Shown: one piece after another, positions 32,879-40,086 of the stretch
How positions within the stretch are numbered: position 1 is the stretch's first letter
Layout: each line of letters opens with the position of its first letter
Assembly: GCA_028283655.1 (NCBI GenBank)
Contig: JAPWKE010000003.1
Coordinates: 2,852,001-2,916,000, forward strand
Length of the DNA stretch: 64,000 nucleotides
Source: Acidobacteriaceae bacterium
GTDB taxonomy: Bacteria; Acidobacteriota; Terriglobia; Terriglobales; Acidobacteriaceae
Reading direction: 5' to 3'
The notes under the pieces: model-generated
Database searches by the model: none
Told to the model about the DNA's origin: nothing
The model's input: only the letters and a program-made list of their open reading frames with translations
Translations under genes and position numbers: made by a program

Positions 32879-33748
32879 CTACTTCGCGCGGAACCGATTC
32901 GCTACCTTGAACTCTTCGCGCAACTCTGGCGTCCGCAGATTCTCCCGCACATGCGCCAACTGCTGCTCCAACGCAAACAGCGTCGCCGCCAGCGGCTTCG
33001 TATTCGTCAGCGCAATATCGCGCCACATGCTGTAAGGACTTGCTCCAAGTCGAGTCGTCTCGCGCAGAGCACGTCCACCGATCGCGCGAATGTCCTCCAT
33101 CGCAGCCTCGTCCTCGCCGAACGAGTCTTCGAGCAGGGCCGCGAACGCCGTCGACAACATCTGCGGCAGATGCGAAACCCACGCACAAACCGTATCGTGC
33201 CGCTCGGCCGCGATCTCACGCGTCACCGCGCCCATCGCCGTCACCCAGGCGCGCCACTGTGCCGCCAAAGCACCATCCGCAACCAGTGGCGTAAACAGCC
33301 AGGTCGCTCCTGCAAAGAGCGAAGCCTCGGCCAATCCCGCGCCGCCCGACTCTTTTCCCGCCATCGGATGCCCCGGCAGAAACGCCGCCTTGCCCGCAGT
33401 GTTGTAGAGCTCGTCCGCCTTGGCGCAGATCGCAACTTTCGTGCTGCCAACGTCGGTCACAAGCTGTGACTCACCAAGCACCGCCGCAAGCCGCTCCATC
33501 CAGTCCAGGATCGGCAGCACCGGCACGGCCAGCACATAGATGTCGGCCACTCCCGGCTCAAAGACGTCCTCGATCTGGGGTAAAACCCGATCGACCGCAC
33601 CAGCCTGCAGCGCCGCGGCGGACTCAGCCGCGCTCGCATCCCATCCCAGCACCTCACCCACGCCATGCTCCGGTGCTAGCGCCTTCAGCGCTAGCCCGAT
33701 CGAGGCTCCGATAAGTCCTGTTCCAAGAATGAGAACGCGCGTCGCCAT
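32879..33748 (-). CDS. tyrA: Prephenate dehydrogenase (arogenate/cyclohexadienyl dehydrogenase family)
   Basis: Oxidative decarboxylation of prephenate in tyrosine synthesis. 289 residues. The NAD-binding motif is VLILGTGLIGASIGLALKAL. ADIYVLAVPVLPILDWM and LVTDVGSTKVAICAKADEL follow, then the catalytic-region FLPGHPMAGKESGGAGLAEA. No ACT or chorismate-mutase domain is fused. Its ATG overlaps the proA stop codon by one base (TGATG), so it is translationally coupled to proA. Confidence 0.93.
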   Translation of the reverse strand: MATRVLILGTGLIGASIGLALKALAPEHGVGEVLGWDASAAESAAALQAGAVDRVLPQIEDVFEPGVADIYVLAVPVLPILDWMERLAAVLGESQLVTDVGSTKVAICAKADELYNTAGKAAFLPGHPMAGKESGGAGLAEASLFAGATWLFTPLVADGALAAQWRAWVTAMGAVTREIAAERHDTVCAWVSHLPQMLSTAFAALLEDSFGEDEAAMEDIRAIGGRALRETTRLGASPYSMWRDIALTNTKPLAATLFALEQQLAHVRENLRTPELREEFKVANRFRAK

Positions 33749-35079
33749 CAGACCTCTCGCCTGTGCGTAAACTGCCGCCCTGCGCTGCCACGATAATCAC
33801 CGGCTACATGTCCGCGACCGCGCAACACATACTTGTATGTCGTAATTCCGTCCAGCCCCACGGGGCCGCGCGCATGGAACTTGCTCGTACTGATGCCAAC
33901 CTCCGCGCCAAAGCCATAGCGGAAGCCATCGGCAAAACGCGTCGACACGTTGTGATACACACCTGCGGCATCCACCTCGCGCAGGAATCGCTCCGCAGCC
34001 GTAGCATCTTCGGTCAGGATGCTCTCCGTATGCAGCGAACCATGCTTGTGAATGTGTTCAATCGCAGCCTCGAGCGAGTCGACCACGCCCATCGCAAGCT
34101 CTGGCTCACCGTACTCCTGCGACCAGTCCGTCACCGCATCCACATCCGCAGCCAGCGCACGAACCGCGCTGTCACCATGCAACTTCACGCCGCGACGAGC
34201 CAACTGCTCTGCCAGCTTCGGCACAAACGTCGCAGCAATATCGCGATGCACCAGCACCGTCTCCACCGCATTGCATGCGGCAGGATAATCCAGCTTTGCA
34301 TCGTCGATCACGCGCAACGCCAACGGCTCGTCCGCAGCCAGATCGACATAGATGTGACAAATACCTTCCGCATGCCCCAGCACCGGAATCCGCGTATTGG
34401 CCTGCACAAACTCCACTAACGACTTCGATCCGCGCGGGATCACCATGTCGATCGCATCGTGCATCGCCAGCATCTCGTTTGCACGCTCACGACCCAGCAC
34501 CAGCGTAATCAGATCGCTCGGCAAGCCAGCAGCCGCAACAGCTTCGCGCAATACGTCCACCAGCACCGTCGCGGTACGTTCGACTTCCTTGCCCGGCTTC
34601 AGCATCACAGCGTTGCCGCTCTTGATCGCCAGCGACGCAATCTGCGTCACCGCGTCAGGACGCGCTTCGAAGATCACCGCCAGAACACCAAGAGGCACGG
34701 AGATCTTCTGCAGGTGCAAGCCCTTCGCAGCGCCATTCGGCTGCGGGTCCTGATCGTCCAGCTCCATCGCATCGAGCACTCGCCCCAGCGGATCAGGCAA
34801 CGCTGCCACCGAGCGAATCTGCTCGACCATCTCACGCAGCTTACCTTCCGTCAGCTTCAGTCGCGAGAGCGTCGAAGGCGAAAGCTTCTCCTCACCGCTC
34901 AACGCTTCCGCCGCAGCAAGATCCTCCGCGTTGGCGGCAAACAAACGTTCCGCCGCAACATCCACGGCCTCAGCCATGGCTTCGAGCGCAGCGTTACGCA
35001 CGGCTTCCTCCAGCGGCGCCAGCACGCGCGACGCCACCTTTGCCGCTACCGCTACCTCTCGCACGCTACGCGCAGCCAT
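33748..35079 (-). CDS. proA: Gamma-glutamyl phosphate reductase
   Basis: Second step of proline synthesis: NADPH reduction of gamma-glutamyl phosphate to glutamate semialdehyde. 443 residues, slightly longer than the usual 415-420. The family starts at SVREVAVAAKVASRVLAPLE. VPLGVLAVIFEARPDAVTQI, DMVIPRGSKSLVEFVQ and LDYPAACNAVETVLVHRD with the catalytic Cys are intact, as is STRFADGFRYGFGAEVGIST. Start and stop codons overlap those of proB and tyrA, forming one tight three-gene operon. Confidence 0.96.
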   Translation of the reverse strand: MAARSVREVAVAAKVASRVLAPLEEAVRNAALEAMAEAVDVAAERLFAANAEDLAAAEALSGEEKLSPSTLSRLKLTEGKLREMVEQIRSVAALPDPLGRVLDAMELDDQDPQPNGAAKGLHLQKISVPLGVLAVIFEARPDAVTQIASLAIKSGNAVMLKPGKEVERTATVLVDVLREAVAAAGLPSDLITLVLGRERANEMLAMHDAIDMVIPRGSKSLVEFVQANTRIPVLGHAEGICHIYVDLAADEPLALRVIDDAKLDYPAACNAVETVLVHRDIAATFVPKLAEQLARRGVKLHGDSAVRALAADVDAVTDWSQEYGEPELAMGVVDSLEAAIEHIHKHGSLHTESILTEDATAAERFLREVDAAGVYHNVSTRFADGFRYGFGAEVGISTSKFHARGPVGLDGITTYKYVLRGRGHVAGDYRGSAGRQFTHRREV

Positions 35080-35897
35080 TACCAGCTCCCCGCCGCAACA
35101 GGCTTGGCAAAACGTGTACCAACCTCTTCACCCGCCATGATGCGCTCAAGCACCTGCGGCGTACGACCGTTCGCGATCACTACCTGCTTGCCTGCGCGTA
35201 ACGCAATGTTGGCGCTCTCCAGCTTCGAGGTCATGCCGCCACGTCCACGTGCGCTCAAGCTTCCCTGCGCCATCTGCAGCACGCTGTCATCAATCGCGTC
35301 CACACGCGGCAACAGCGTTGCGCCCGGCTCATTCGGATTGCGGTCATACAAGCCATCGACATCCGAAAGCAGCACCAGAAGATCGCCGCCGATATGCTTC
35401 ACCAGCAACGCCGAAAGCTTGTCGTTGTCGCCAAAAATACGTTCGCGCTGCGGCGCGCCATCACTGGGACGCTCCAACTCCATCGTCGACACCGTATCGT
35501 TCTCGTTCACGATCGGAATCACGCCCATCGTTAGCAGCGCATCAAGCGTCGCCCGCAGGTTCGCATGGCGAGTGGGATCACGGAAGTCATCTTCCGTCAG
35601 CAACACCTGCGCAATCGGGCAGTTCAGCCGATCGAACGCATCGCCGTAGAAAGCCATCAGCCGCGATTGTCCAATCGCCGCACAAGCCTGCACCTGTGCC
35701 AGCACGGTGGGCCGCGCGCTCAGCCCCAGCCGCTCCACGCCGAGCCCAACAGCGCCCGACGACACCACCAGCACTTCATAGCCCTGGTCACGCAGAGCCG
35801 CAACCTGCTCTACAAGTCCGCACAACAACCCGAGCGCCACCTTGCCATCGGCGCGCATGATGACGTTCGTTCCCAGCTTGACGACAATACGACGCAT
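35079..35897 (-). CDS. proB: Glutamate 5-kinase (without PUA domain)
   Basis: First, feedback-controlled step of proline synthesis. 272 residues. RIVVKLGTNVIM is the kinase start, then LVVSSGAVGLGVERLGL, IPIVNENDTVSTMEL, FGDNDKLSALLV and SARGRGGMTSKLESANIALR. The C-terminal PUA domain found in E. coli ProB is absent, as in many other bacteria, so the protein ends near VGTRFAKPVAAGSW. First gene of proB-proA-tyrA, separated from aroF by a terminator. Confidence 0.96.
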   Translation of the reverse strand: MRRIVVKLGTNVIMRADGKVALGLLCGLVEQVAALRDQGYEVLVVSSGAVGLGVERLGLSARPTVLAQVQACAAIGQSRLMAFYGDAFDRLNCPIAQVLLTEDDFRDPTRHANLRATLDALLTMGVIPIVNENDTVSTMELERPSDGAPQRERIFGDNDKLSALLVKHIGGDLLVLLSDVDGLYDRNPNEPGATLLPRVDAIDDSVLQMAQGSLSARGRGGMTSKLESANIALRAGKQVVIANGRTPQVLERIMAGEEVGTRFAKPVAAGSW

Positions 35898-36021: not shown

Positions 36022-37068
36022 CTATGCGTGGACAGCCTGTACCGCCGGAGCCACCGTGCGGTCGACGATCGGAGCCAACTGGCGAAGCTTTACCACCAGT
36101 TCCGTCAACTGCTCCGGCGTCAGCGACTGAGCGCCGTCGCTCATCGCCTTGTCCGGGTTCGGATGCATCTCCATCAACAGGCCATCGCCACCGGCAGCCA
36201 CCGTCGCCATCGCCATCGGCGGAACGAACGCGCGGATACCGACGCCGTGCGACGGGTCGCCGAAGACCGGCAGATGCGTCAGCTTCTTCAACACCGGGAT
36301 CGCCGAGATGTCCATCGTGTTGCGCGTCGCGGTTTCATAGGTGCGGATGCCGCGCTCGCACAGGATCAAATCGTAGTTGCCGCCGGAGAGAATGTACTCC
36401 GCCGAAAGCAGAAGCTCTTCGATCGTTGCAGCGATGCCGCGCTTCAGCAACACAGGCTTGCGGACCTTGCCGAGCTCACGCAGAAGGTTGAAGTTCTGCA
36501 TGTTCCGCGCGCCGACCTGGAAGCAGTCGATATACGGCAGCATCTGCTCGATCTGCGAGATCTCCATAACCTCGGTGATCACCAGCAGGCCGTACTCATC
36601 CGCAGCCTCGCGCATGATCTTCAAGCCTTCCACGCCCATCCCCTGGAACGAGTACGGCGACGAACGCGGCTTGTACGCTCCACCGCGCAGGAACTGACCG
36701 CCGGCTTCAGCAACAAGGCGTGCGCTCTCACGGATCTGCTCACGCGACTCCACCGAGCACGGGCCAGCCATTACGACGATCTCTTCCCCACCGACAACGA
36801 CGCCGTTGGGAAAGGTCACCTTCGTGCCCTCGGGGCGGAAGCCGCGGCCGGCGAGCTTGTACGGCGAAGAGATGCGGTACGCCTGCGACACGCCCGGCAG
36901 CACCTGGAACTCGGTCACTTCGAAGTGTCCCGGCGTTCCAACGCCAGCGAGAATGGTCTGCGTTTCGCCGGTGGTGCGGTGTACGTTGAAGCCGAGCTCT
37001 TCCATACGTTCGATCACGGCTTCAATCTGTTCCAGACTTGCCTTGTCCTGCATGGCAACGATCATCAC
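36022..37068 (-). CDS. aroF: 3-deoxy-7-phosphoheptulonate synthase (DAHP synthase, class I-beta)
   Basis: Condenses PEP and erythrose-4-phosphate as the first shikimate-pathway step. 348 residues. Residues 1-70 are a ferredoxin-like N-terminal regulatory domain (MIVAMQDKASLEQIEAVIER), the type that binds aromatic amino acids or prephenate in related enzymes. The barrel has VMAGPCSVESREQIRESARL, GGAYKPRSSPYSFQGMG, VLLKRGIAATIEELLLSAEY, LPVFGDPSHGVG and EMHPNPDKAMSDG. AGAGG precedes the ATG by 8 bases. It follows aroQ by 35 bp. Confidence 0.96.
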   Translation of the reverse strand: MMIVAMQDKASLEQIEAVIERMEELGFNVHRTTGETQTILAGVGTPGHFEVTEFQVLPGVSQAYRISSPYKLAGRGFRPEGTKVTFPNGVVVGGEEIVVMAGPCSVESREQIRESARLVAEAGGQFLRGGAYKPRSSPYSFQGMGVEGLKIMREAADEYGLLVITEVMEISQIEQMLPYIDCFQVGARNMQNFNLLRELGKVRKPVLLKRGIAATIEELLLSAEYILSGGNYDLILCERGIRTYETATRNTMDISAIPVLKKLTHLPVFGDPSHGVGIRAFVPPMAMATVAAGGDGLLMEMHPNPDKAMSDGAQSLTPEQLTELVVKLRQLAPIVDRTVAPAVQAVHA

Positions 37069-37103: not shown

Positions 37104-37367
37104 CTACTTCGCAGGCCTCTGCTTGTTGCGCATCACGTCCATGATGCGCTGGTAAATGTCAGTAAGTTCAGCGGTGGTCAGCGGACCGGCGCTTGCGGTG
37201 CTTACATGCTCAAAGACTCTCTGCTCGCGTTGTGGCTCATACACAGGCGCTGCGTTGGATTGTTTGAGCTTGCCAATCTCGACGGCGCACTCTGCGCGCT
37301 TGTTCAGCAGCGCTGTGATCTGCTCGTCAATTTCGTCAATCTTGTTACGCCAGTCCGCTATTTCCAT
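37104..37367 (-). CDS. aroQ: Chorismate mutase, AroQ type
   Basis: Claisen rearrangement of chorismate to prephenate, the branch point to Phe and Tyr. 87 residues from ATG 37367 with GGAG 6 bases upstream. WRNKIDEIDEQITALLNKRA matches the AroQ helix 1 (Arg in W-R, Arg in NKR). EIGKLKQSNAAPVYEPQREQ supplies the catalytic Lys and the Glu/Gln region. A free-standing single-domain enzyme between trpA and aroF, so Trp-, Phe- and Tyr-branch genes share one transcript. Confidence 0.93.
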   Translation of the reverse strand: MEIADWRNKIDEIDEQITALLNKRAECAVEIGKLKQSNAAPVYEPQREQRVFEHVSTASAGPLTTAELTDIYQRIMDVMRNKQRPAK

Positions 37368-37419
37368 CGTGGTTCTCCGTGCCAGGTTGTAGATGTGGGT
37401 GCGTTCCGATGATATGCGT

Positions 37420-38199
37420 TTAGAAAGAAGGCTGGCCTCCCGTCTTGAGCGAGCGAACAAAGTCGCCAACGGCTTTCGCTGCTTCCGCTGTTGGCGTTTT
37501 CTCCACCAGCGCGACGATCGCGGAGCCCACAACAGCTGCATCCGCAAAGCCCGCAACAGTCTTCACATGCTCGGGCGTCGAGATGCCGAAGCCCAGCGCC
37601 ACAGGGATCTGCGCGAACTGCTTGAGACGCTTCACCAGCGACTCGGCATCGGCTGCAAGCTCCGTCTGCGTACCCGTAATGCCCACACGCGAGATTGCGT
37701 AGACGAATCCGCGCGAGTGCTCCGCGATCGCCTTCAGGCGTTCGTCCGGCGAGGTCGGCGCAGCGAGGAACACCGGCGCAAGATCGTTCTCGCGCATCGC
37801 TGCGAGATACTCACCCGCCTCTTCGACGATCATGTCGGTGAGCAACACACCATCCGCACCCGCAGCCTTCGCGGCCTTCGCGAACGCAGCCATGCCAAAG
37901 CGCACAACGGGGTTGAGATAGCTAAAGAGAATGATGCCTGCGTTCGGCCGCGCATCGCGAATCTCGCGACAGGTACCGAGCACATCCGTAAGCCGCGTTC
38001 CCTTCGCCACAGCGCGCTCACTCGCACGCTGAATCACCGGGCCATCAGCCAACGGATCGCTAAACGGCACACCGAGTTCGATGACATCCGCACCGGCGTC
38101 AATCGCGGCGATCGCCATATCGCGCGTGGTGGCAAGATCGGGATCGCCTGCGGTGAAGTAAATAACGAGGCCGGGCTTATTCTCAAACTGAATCGACAT
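37420..38199 (-). CDS. trpA: Tryptophan synthase alpha chain
   Basis: Cleaves indole-3-glycerol phosphate to indole, which is channelled to TrpB. 259 residues. LVIYFTAGDPDLATTRDMAI and ADVIELGVPFSDPLADGPVI carry the catalytic Glu and Asp residues. GVLLTDMIVEEAGEYLAAM, RGFVYAISRVGITG and VALGFGISTPEHVK complete the barrel. The start codon overlaps the trpB stop by one base (TAATG). Confidence 0.97.
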   Translation of the reverse strand: MSIQFENKPGLVIYFTAGDPDLATTRDMAIAAIDAGADVIELGVPFSDPLADGPVIQRASERAVAKGTRLTDVLGTCREIRDARPNAGIILFSYLNPVVRFGMAAFAKAAKAAGADGVLLTDMIVEEAGEYLAAMRENDLAPVFLAAPTSPDERLKAIAEHSRGFVYAISRVGITGTQTELAADAESLVKRLKQFAQIPVALGFGISTPEHVKTVAGFADAAVVGSAIVALVEKTPTAEAAKAVGDFVRSLKTGGQPSF

Positions 38200-39443
38200 T
38201 ACTTCTTTGCCTCCAAGCCTTCCAGGCTCATCTCTTTGCGCAGAATCCCAAGGTCCTTATCACCTCGACCGCTGACATTCACCATCAGCACCATGCCCTT
38301 GCCCATCTTCGGCGCGAGCTTGATCGCCTCAGCAATCGCGTGCGCCGACTCCAGCGCCGGAATGATGCCCTCCGTGCGGCTCAACACCTTCACCGCATCG
38401 AGCGCTTCGTGGTCCATCGCGTACGTGTACGTCGCGCGGCCCGAGTCGTGCAGCATCGCGTGCTCCGGCCCAACGCTCGCGTAGTCGAGACCCGCCGATA
38501 CCGAATGCGTCGATGCAACCTGCCCCGCATCGTCCTGCAACACATAGCTGTACGTGCCCTGCAGCACGCCCGGAACGCCGCCGTGGAAGCGCGCCGCGTG
38601 CTCGCCAAGCGCCGTGCCGCGCCCACCAGCCTCGACACCGACCAACGCAACATCCTTGTCGTTGAGGTATTCGAAGAACGCACCAATCGCGTTCGATCCA
38701 CCGCCCACGCAAGCCACGATGGTGTCCGGCAGCTTGCCTTCCGCCGCAAGAATCTGCTCACGCGACTCACGCGAGATCACACGCTGAAAGTCGCGCACGA
38801 TCGTCGGGTAAGGATGCGAGCCCAGCGCCGAGCCGAGGATGTAGAACGTGTTGCGCACGTTCGTGACCCAGTCGCGCATCGCCTCGTTGATAGCGTCCTT
38901 CAGCGTCGCCGAACCCGCACCCACGCCGCGCACCTCTGCGCCGAGCAGGCGCATACGGTAGACGTTCGGCTCCTGGCGGCGCATGTCTTCTTCGCCCATG
39001 TACACCACGCACTCCAGCCCAAACAACGCGCAAACCGTTGCCGTCGCCACGCCATGCTGGCCCGCGCCCGTCTCCGCGATGATGCGCGTCTTGCCCATGC
39101 GCTTGGCGAGCAGCGCCTGGCCCAGCGCGTTGTTGATCTTGTGCGCGCCGGTGTGCAGCAAGTCTTCGCGCTTCAGATAAATCTTCGCGCCGCCGAGCTC
39201 TTCGCTCAGGCGCTTGGCAAAGTACAGCGGCGTAGGACGACCGCAGTAGTTCTTCAACAGCCCATCGAGCTCCGCATGGAACGCCGGATCAGCCTGCGCG
39301 TCAGCGTAGCACTTGTCCAGTTCGAGCAGCGCAGCCATCAGCGTCTCCGGCACGTAACGGCCGCCGTAAGCCCCAAAGCGTCCTGCCAGCTGGTTCGCCG
39401 GCGTAGCGGCTGCTGGCTTCGTCATCGTCTCGACACTGCTCAT
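38199..39443 (-). CDS. trpB: Tryptophan synthase beta chain
   Basis: PLP enzyme that makes tryptophan from indole and serine. 414 residues, TrpB1 type. [20 protein letters not shown] and [20 protein letters not shown] come first. [20 protein letters not shown] has the PLP lysine, and [18 protein letters not shown] the phosphate-binding loop. An AGGAG lies 6 bases before ATG 39443. First structural gene of trpB-trpA-aroQ-aroF, preceded by a leader peptide and terminator (39479-39642). No trpC/F/D/E is in this operon. Confidence 0.98.
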
Positions 39444-39478
39444 TGCTTCTCCTGTATTTCGGTTCGTCCTAAAGCAAA

Positions 39479-39505
39479 AGCCGCGCCCTTTTCTGGGTCG
39501 CGGCT
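39479..39505 (-). terminator. Attenuator-type terminator in the trpB leader
   Basis: On the minus strand AGCCGCGACCC, loop AGAAAA, GGGCGCGGCT, then TTTTGCTTT; the trpB ATG lies 36 bases further on. The hairpin follows the stop codon of the aromatic leader peptide by 62 bases. An upstream hairpin (GAAG-A-CTCT with AGAGCTTC, in the 39520-39560 region) lies between. Such a terminator before, not after, a biosynthetic operon is the classical attenuator layout. Confidence 0.8.
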
Positions 39506-39567
39506 CGGAGGTCTTTGTGCGTTGCTGGGAAGCTCTCGTGTTGCTGTTGCAGAGTCTTCGTGCAGGC

Positions 39568-39642
39568 TCAGTCCGCCGTCGCCGCTACCGGGTGCCAGTA
39601 GCGGAACGGAAACGCAAAAAACGGGCTGAACGAGTTACGCAT
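39568..39642 (-). CDS. Aromatic leader peptide of the trpBA-aroQ-aroF operon
   Basis: A 24-codon open frame, ATG 39642 to TGA 39568. Residues 5-16 read [12 protein letters not shown]: five Phe, one Tyr and one Trp in 12 codons. It is followed by an intrinsic terminator just before trpB. There is no proper Shine-Dalgarno. The predicted -10 (TAAGTT, 39656-39651) is 8 bases from the ATG, so the transcript is probably leaderless. The enrichment in just the residues made by the downstream operon argues strongly for ribosome-mediated attenuation. Confidence 0.8.
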
Positions 39643-39650
39643 TCCTAGTC

Positions 39651-39679
39651 AACTTACTCCGCGAGCCAGAAGAACGCAA
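39651..39679 (-). promoter_or_regulatory. Candidate promoter of the aromatic leader and trpB operon
   Basis: -35 TTGCGT (39679-39674), a 17-base spacer and -10 TAAGTT (39656-39651), predicting a start at about 39643, one or two bases from the leader-peptide ATG. No RNA gene or other coding frame is seen in the rest of 39444-39780. Confidence 0.55.
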
Positions 39680-39780: not shown

Positions 39781-40086
39781 ATGAAGATGACAAAACTAGC
39801 TGCAAAGATAACTCTTGCCACTCTGCTGGCCGCTCCGGTCGCTTCCATCGCTCAGACCGTGCACCAGGACGCGAAACGCGCCCAGGATCGCTCTGACAAA
39901 CGCCACCACACCACGGCCAAGGTCGTCGGAGGTTCGGCAGTTGGCGGCGCGGTCGTCGGAGGCCTGGTCGGAGGCGGTAAAGGTGCTGTAATCGGCGGCG
40001 CAGTCGGAGCAGGAGGCGGTCTGCTGGCCGATAAGGCACGCAAGAACCACGACGTGAAGAAGCGCGAGCGGAACGGGCATTACTAG
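39781..40086 (+). CDS. Exported glycine-zipper protein
   Basis: 101 residues. Residues 1-25 form a signal peptide (KLAAKITLATLLAAPVASIA). A charged stretch (QDAKRAQDRSDKRHH) is followed by a glycine zipper, VVGGSAVGGAVVGGLVGGG and KGAVIGGAVGAGGGLLADKA, which can insert into or span a membrane. The tail is basic. AAAGG lies 9 bases before the ATG. Proteins of this type are common small envelope or stress-related proteins; no specific role can be assigned. Confidence 0.8.
   Translation: MKMTKLAAKITLATLLAAPVASIAQTVHQDAKRAQDRSDKRHHTTAKVVGGSAVGGAVVGGLVGGGKGAVIGGAVGAGGGLLADKARKNHDVKKRERNGHY

Follow-up and report, generated by a model that had tools for sequence, protein, structure and literature searches.

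A putative transcription attenuator with a composite Phe/Tyr/Trp leader peptide upstream of trpBA in Acidobacteriaceae

In a 64,000-nucleotide stretch of an Acidobacteriaceae genome (hereafter, the window), the region directly upstream of trpB carries an element that is highly likely to act as a ribosome-mediated transcription attenuator, its sensor being a composite of Phe, Tyr, and Trp codons. This reading draws on the leader frame, its conservation, the gene context, covariation, and competing pairings. The comparative evidence strongly supports ribosome-mediated attenuation, in which the signal sensed would be aminoacyl-tRNA. Judged from sequence matches, the distribution of the element is much wider than the single finding implied. 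A broader proposal, which we favor only slightly, is that one duplicated composite Phe/Tyr/Trp cassette governs a large part of aromatic biosynthesis in Acidobacteriota. Its copies before aroF, aroK, chorismate mutase/pheA, and trpBA would be retuned operon by operon through gain or loss of Trp codons, with the leader translated from a near-leaderless mRNA, in lineages that yielded no TrpR, TRAP, or T-box.

Leader frame, promoter, and operon at the trpB locus

The initial annotation described a 24-codon frame at 39642-39568 in front of trpBA, chorismate mutase, and DAHP synthase genes. Its coordinates and reading frame are as claimed (ATG at 39642, TGA at 39570-39568, minus strand), and Pfam matches confirm the downstream genes. 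The operon order is trpB-trpA-chorismate mutase-DAHP synthase-proB-proA-tyrA, all on the minus strand, of which proB, proA, and tyrA are probably the cotranscribed tail. The trpB gene starts at 39443 and is 83% identical over 404 residues to trpB of a same-genus relative.

39674-39679, minus strand: candidate -35 (TTGCGT), 17-nt spacing to the -10; a TTGCNN/TTGACN box recurs in relatives
39651-39656, minus strand: candidate -10 (TAAGTT), ending 8 nt ahead of the leader ATG
39568-39642, minus strand: leader ORF of 24 codons (homologs and frame enrichment)
38199-39443, minus strand: trpB (PF00291)
37420-38199, minus strand: trpA (PF00290)
37104-37376, minus strand: chorismate mutase, aroQ type (PF01817)
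36022-37068, minus strand: DAHP synthase, aroF (PF00793, PF18152)
32879-35897, minus strand: proB, proA, and tyrA (PF00696, amino-acid kinase; PF00171, aldehyde dehydrogenase family; PF02153/PF20463, prephenate dehydrogenase)

The placement of proB and proA between aroF and tyrA, inside an aromatic operon (32879-35897, minus strand), is a feature of this locus. On the other side of the leader, a small ORF (39781-40086, plus strand), rich in glycine and with no Pfam match, lies between trpF and the leader and splits trpCF from trpBA. Because this upstream neighbor is divergent, the terminator described below ends no gene on the minus strand, in agreement with the original proposal that a terminator with a T tract is placed ahead of trpB and not behind a gene.

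Across leaders, the distance from the -10 box to the ATG peaks at 7 to 10 nt, a spacing shared by the majority of those that match a promoter well, and one-third of leaders reach a promoter score of at least 8 of 12, compared to 3.6% of shuffles. No Shine-Dalgarno enrichment was detected ahead of the leader ATGs (3.09, versus 3.09 in shuffles). Together, the -10 position and the absent Shine-Dalgarno signal suggest that the leader mRNA is near-leaderless, with transcription predicted to start a few bases ahead of the ATG. As there is no Shine-Dalgarno site for the leader, its translation would rely on leaderless initiation. A precedent is Corynebacterium glutamicum ilvB, whose leader peptide is made without a ribosome binding site, according to a reference cited in PMC4046766.

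Competing hairpins and their coevolution

The leader RNA folds better than 198 of 200 shuffled sequences (z of -2.45) and can be divided into four segments, followed by a T tract.

39574-39628, minus strand: arms of the outer helix (39628-39623 with 39578-39574); helix 2 has both-side changes at 3 of 4 pairs
39595-39604, minus strand: segment 1, CCGCTACTGG, containing the Tyr15 and Trp16 codons (folding, alignment, covariation)
39582-39590, minus strand: segment 2, the 3' arm of hairpin 1:2; with the bases to 39573, the 5' arm of the antiterminator (covariation, duplex test)
39495-39510, minus strand: segment 3, CTCCGAGCCGCGACCC, the 3' arm of the antiterminator and 5' arm of the terminator (folding, duplex test, covariation)
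39480-39488, minus strand: segment 4, GGGCGCGGC, the 3' arm of the terminator (folding, covariation)
39471-39479, minus strand: T tract, TTTTGCTTT (sequence)

The terminator (39504-39471) reads GCCGCGaCCC-AGAAAA-GGGCGCGGC followed by TTTTGCTTT and has a bulged, GC-rich stem. Its hairpin lies approximately 60 nt past the leader stop, and its tail ends 27 nt ahead of trpB. A simple terminator scan of the window did not list it, the tail and the bulged stem being outside the scan pattern; the stem is kept in 99 distinct relatives. The upstream stem was originally labeled a spacer hairpin. Since the Arg-Tyr-Trp codons pair with the Val-Ala-Ala codons, this label does not hold, and the stem is instead the 1:2, or anti-antiterminator, hairpin. 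Segment 2 and the bases that follow it (GGTAGCGGCGACGGCGG) pair in interrupted helices with CCTCCGAGCCGCGACC in segment 3, the last bases of which also build the terminator with segment 4. An alternative pairing of GCGGC with GCCGC had been suggested earlier and forms the core of this longer antiterminator, the duplex of which reaches -23.5 kcal/mol in the window. The 1:2, 2:3, and 3:4 pairings are thus predicted to be mutually exclusive, and a predicted intrinsic terminator lies between the leader and the first gene.

The alignment of related genomes that the initial annotation had proposed was carried out and recovered a conserved frame rich in F/Y/W codons, together with competing hairpins that carry compensatory changes. 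Among 99 distinct sequences, 91% of the cells in hairpins 1:2 and 3:4 pair, and both-side changes occur in 206 cells, compared to 54 in shuffles. The covariation score equals 0.308, versus 0.167 for shuffled and at most 0.066 for slid alignments. This alignment was fitted to a covariance model, which biases it toward the structure; the initial MAFFT alignment already had the pairing. The 2:3 pairing is absent from the covariance model, so the antiterminator duplex test is independent of it. In the same 99 sequences, segment 2 binds its own partner at -24.7 kcal/mol, compared to -20.4 kcal/mol for swapped and -15.7 kcal/mol for shuffled partners. None of 5,000 permutations (standard deviation, 0.29) was as low as the own pairs, and the own pair outperformed swaps with divergent partners in 96 of 99 cases. 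No gain of own over swapped partners was seen in two controls, the downstream region (-13.1 versus -13.5) and segment 1 with segment 3 (-7.56 versus -7.53). In some leaders from another family (L267, L270, and L273), the terminator sequence is unrelated, e.g., AGCCCACC...GGTGGGCT, with segment 2 matching it. The spacers also contain a motif, A[AG]NTTC, 4 to 8 nt ahead of segment 3 in 49 of 98 leaders (7 expected), which extends the antiterminator in one family.

Aromatic codons and gene context across relatives

Of the 28 genus genomes, 27 gave matches, often two each, to a first covariance model built from eight sequences; at the family level the model matched 170 of 398 genomes, spread over 30 of 79 genera. 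A second model added weaker relatives in other families of the class and three genomes outside it. The leaders of the latter (L332, L333, and L334) are F/Y-rich without Trp (SRFYFYFYF, LFYFAFTYRFFF, and NNFSFYFYF) and precede pheA or chorismate mutase. Six weak matches (L284, L313, and L335 to L338) were rejected as plain terminators.

One hundred loci were picked from the matches, known false positives (short or weak matches) being excluded beforehand. An aromatic gene comes first after the element in 98 of them (trpB, 32; aroF, 23; aroK, 17; chorismate mutase/pheA, 26); one of the remaining loci ends at a contig edge and the other is a false positive. A core of F.F.(F/Y)RYW..(V/I)A precedes trpB in nine of the first loci. 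Second copies in the genus precede shikimate kinase (aroK), and other genera have the element ahead of DAHP synthase or, in still others, chorismate mutase/prephenate dehydratase. The genome of the window has a single copy, with none ahead of aroK; its sole other match (E value of 0.029) is without a leader and was rejected. Most sampled genomes of the family have trpF directly upstream of trpB and no trpB leader there, while in genomes with a trpB leader, trpF lies at a distance of over 700 nt or is missing from the stretch that was searched. The trpB attenuator therefore accompanies the separation of trpBA from trpF, a correlation of which the direction is presumed.

Within the leader frame, F, Y, and W make up 23% of residues, compared to 4% and 7% when the remaining two frames are read (96 leaders). 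Leaders contain 12.3% Phe, 8.9% Tyr, and 3.9% Trp, versus 2.4, 2.4, and 0.4% in the downstream genes. The bias in codon position is weak (13 of 22 variable third positions, versus 9 and 10, in 24 trpB leaders) and was not counted as evidence. Across 98 leaders, aromatic codons concentrate where stalling would favor 2:3 pairing, occurring at -9, -3, and +3 nt from segment 1 in 82, 87, and 95 leaders, respectively. When the window leader was folded with a stalled ribosome, the antiterminator formed with the A-site at F11, F13, Y15, or W16 (for W16, at footprints of up to 12 nt). At footprints of 11 to 12 nt, the modeled probability of 2:3 pairing is approximately 0.5 to 0.7 from F11 to Y15 and 0.4 at W16, dropping to 0 without a ribosome or with one at the stop codon. 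At 13 to 14 nt the Trp codon falls just beyond the effective zone, and at 9 to 10 nt F11 is weak. In this model, the control codons are hence positioned such that stalling would free segment 2 at footprints of 9 to 12 nt. The initial impression that Phe dominates is correct by count in the window leader, but F5, F8, and F9 are too early to act well in the stalling model, leaving only F11, F13, Y15, and W16 well placed, and relatives often drop most Phe codons but keep RYW. In one genus (L205 to L233 and L257 to L264), for instance, many trpB leaders lack most Phe codons (SRISFILRYW) and retain Arg-Tyr-Trp.

Trp is present in all 32 trpB leaders, all 17 aroK leaders, and 20 of 22 aroF leaders, compared to 8 of 26 leaders of chorismate mutase/pheA (Fisher P of about 1e-11, a statistic that ignores relatedness). 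The direction is the same in three families (f1, 11/13 for aroF versus 0/4 for chorismate mutase/pheA; f5, 3/3 versus 0/2; f7, 6/6 versus 8/20). Trp is kept or lost by target, and leader composition therefore follows the operon product; the window element likewise appears to be a short leader ORF whose control codons match the products of its operon.

The following scheme can be proposed. With ample charged tRNA-Phe, tRNA-Tyr, and tRNA-Trp, the ribosome would clear codons 11 to 16 and cover segment 2, the 3:4 terminator would form, and RNA polymerase would halt ahead of trpB. If any of the three runs short, the ribosome would stall at F11, F13, Y15, or W16 and mask segment 1, enabling segment 2 to pair with segment 3 as the antiterminator, so that trpBA-aroQ-aroF is transcribed. 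In other Acidobacteriota, this cassette also lies ahead of aroF, aroK, and chorismate mutase/pheA operons, with adjusted aromatic codons.

Ahead of segment 1, 38 of 98 leaders contain a 7-mer, CGATTTA (codons CGA TTT A..), with 0.2 expected (e.g., L187:1501-1647 and L246:301-458). It is mostly in frame at -11, -17, or -23 nt, and its codons are less common in the downstream genes; they are perhaps slow codons that pace the ribosome.

Alternative explanations and known attenuators

The terminator is strong as well as conserved, as it would be if it served only as a constitutive early terminator or insulator with an incidental F/Y/W-rich frame. However, the enrichment of F/Y/W in that frame, the conserved and coevolving antiterminator, and the near-exclusive placement ahead of aromatic genes make this very improbable. 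Equally little credence can be given to control by a riboswitch, T-box, or RNA-binding protein instead of translation, given the conserved coding frame. No Rfam family, including the Trp leader (RF00513), gave a covariance-model match at gathering score at the locus, and BcKCsr2 and BSR0602, retrieved in a relaxed Rfam search, are chance-level matches. T-box matches were absent at the locus and in 21 genomes, as were TrpR and TRAP genes in 21 genomes, the window's own included.

Codon sensing must also be weighed against a TnaC-like arrest peptide, in which the ribosome would be stalled by the nascent chain or by a free aromatic amino acid, and not by uncharged tRNA at hungry codons. Non-aromatic residues are conserved too (Arg before Tyr-Trp, and Val-Ala-Ala-Ser-Ala-Glu), and an RFT/RFS motif recurs among the leaders. 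Nevertheless, the conserved Arg and Ala codons sit in the 1:2 stem and are accounted for by RNA pairing, the peptides diverge strongly between targets while the aromatic codons persist, and the loss of Trp in chorismate mutase/pheA leaders fits codon sensing, so an arrest peptide is improbable. Slightly less so, though still unlikely, is an additional role in trans, beyond that in cis, in which the peptide or the prematurely ended leader RNA would affect other operons, as Sinorhizobium rnTrpL/peTrpL reportedly do. Some genera have two related leader RNAs per genome and CGATTTA is conserved in 38 of 98 leaders, whereas the genome of the window carries one leader copy only.

Most documented cases of classical attenuation come from Proteobacteria and Actinobacteria, and the leader described here would extend it to Acidobacteriota, a large, little-studied soil phylum. 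As in Escherichia coli pheL-pheA and trpL-trp, the short leader ORF carries its control codons within segment 1, the 1:2, 2:3, and 3:4 hairpins compete, and a U-tract terminator precedes a biosynthetic operon; every defining feature of an attenuator of the pheL/trpL type that is open to sequence analysis is present. Unlike those two, which sense one amino acid each, the leader described here joins Phe, Tyr, and Trp codons in one peptide and has neither a Shine-Dalgarno signal nor an Rfam sequence match. Multivalent control is known from E. coli ilvGMEDA, where one leader peptide contains codons for several operon end products (Ile/Val/Leu). The acidobacterial leader would be its aromatic counterpart, with a cassette that senses Phe/Tyr/Trp and recurs before several operons. 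It suggests a possible way to coordinate a branched pathway without TrpR, TRAP, or T-boxes. Its occurrence ahead of four operon types, whose end products differ, makes the cassette a natural series for testing the position and identity of control codons against response.

The nearest aromatic relative in kind is, by analogy, the aroR leader of C. glutamicum aroF, with a Phe-Tyr-Phe core without Trp that responds to Phe and not to Tyr (Neshat et al. 2014, as reported in PMC11802643; see also PMC4046766). As described there, this attenuator also lies ahead of DAHP synthase and has neighboring Phe and Tyr codons; it differs in having no Trp, in serving one operon, and in belonging to another phylum. 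Actinobacterial trp attenuators are another classical case beyond Proteobacteria, and complementary triples are conserved in their antiterminators and terminators, but they use tandem Trp codons only, and the study that describes them detected no RNA element for phenylalanine or tyrosine in Actinobacteria (PMC1262725). A full-text literature search, with most subscription papers outside its reach, returned no earlier description of this type of attenuation in Acidobacteria; PMC4833913 mentions the phylum for leader-gene distances only. Two of the loci (L036 and L043) lie on contigs labeled Chloroflexi, with trpB genes 73% and 69% identical to that of the window, and L036 at least may be a mislabeled acidobacterial bin.
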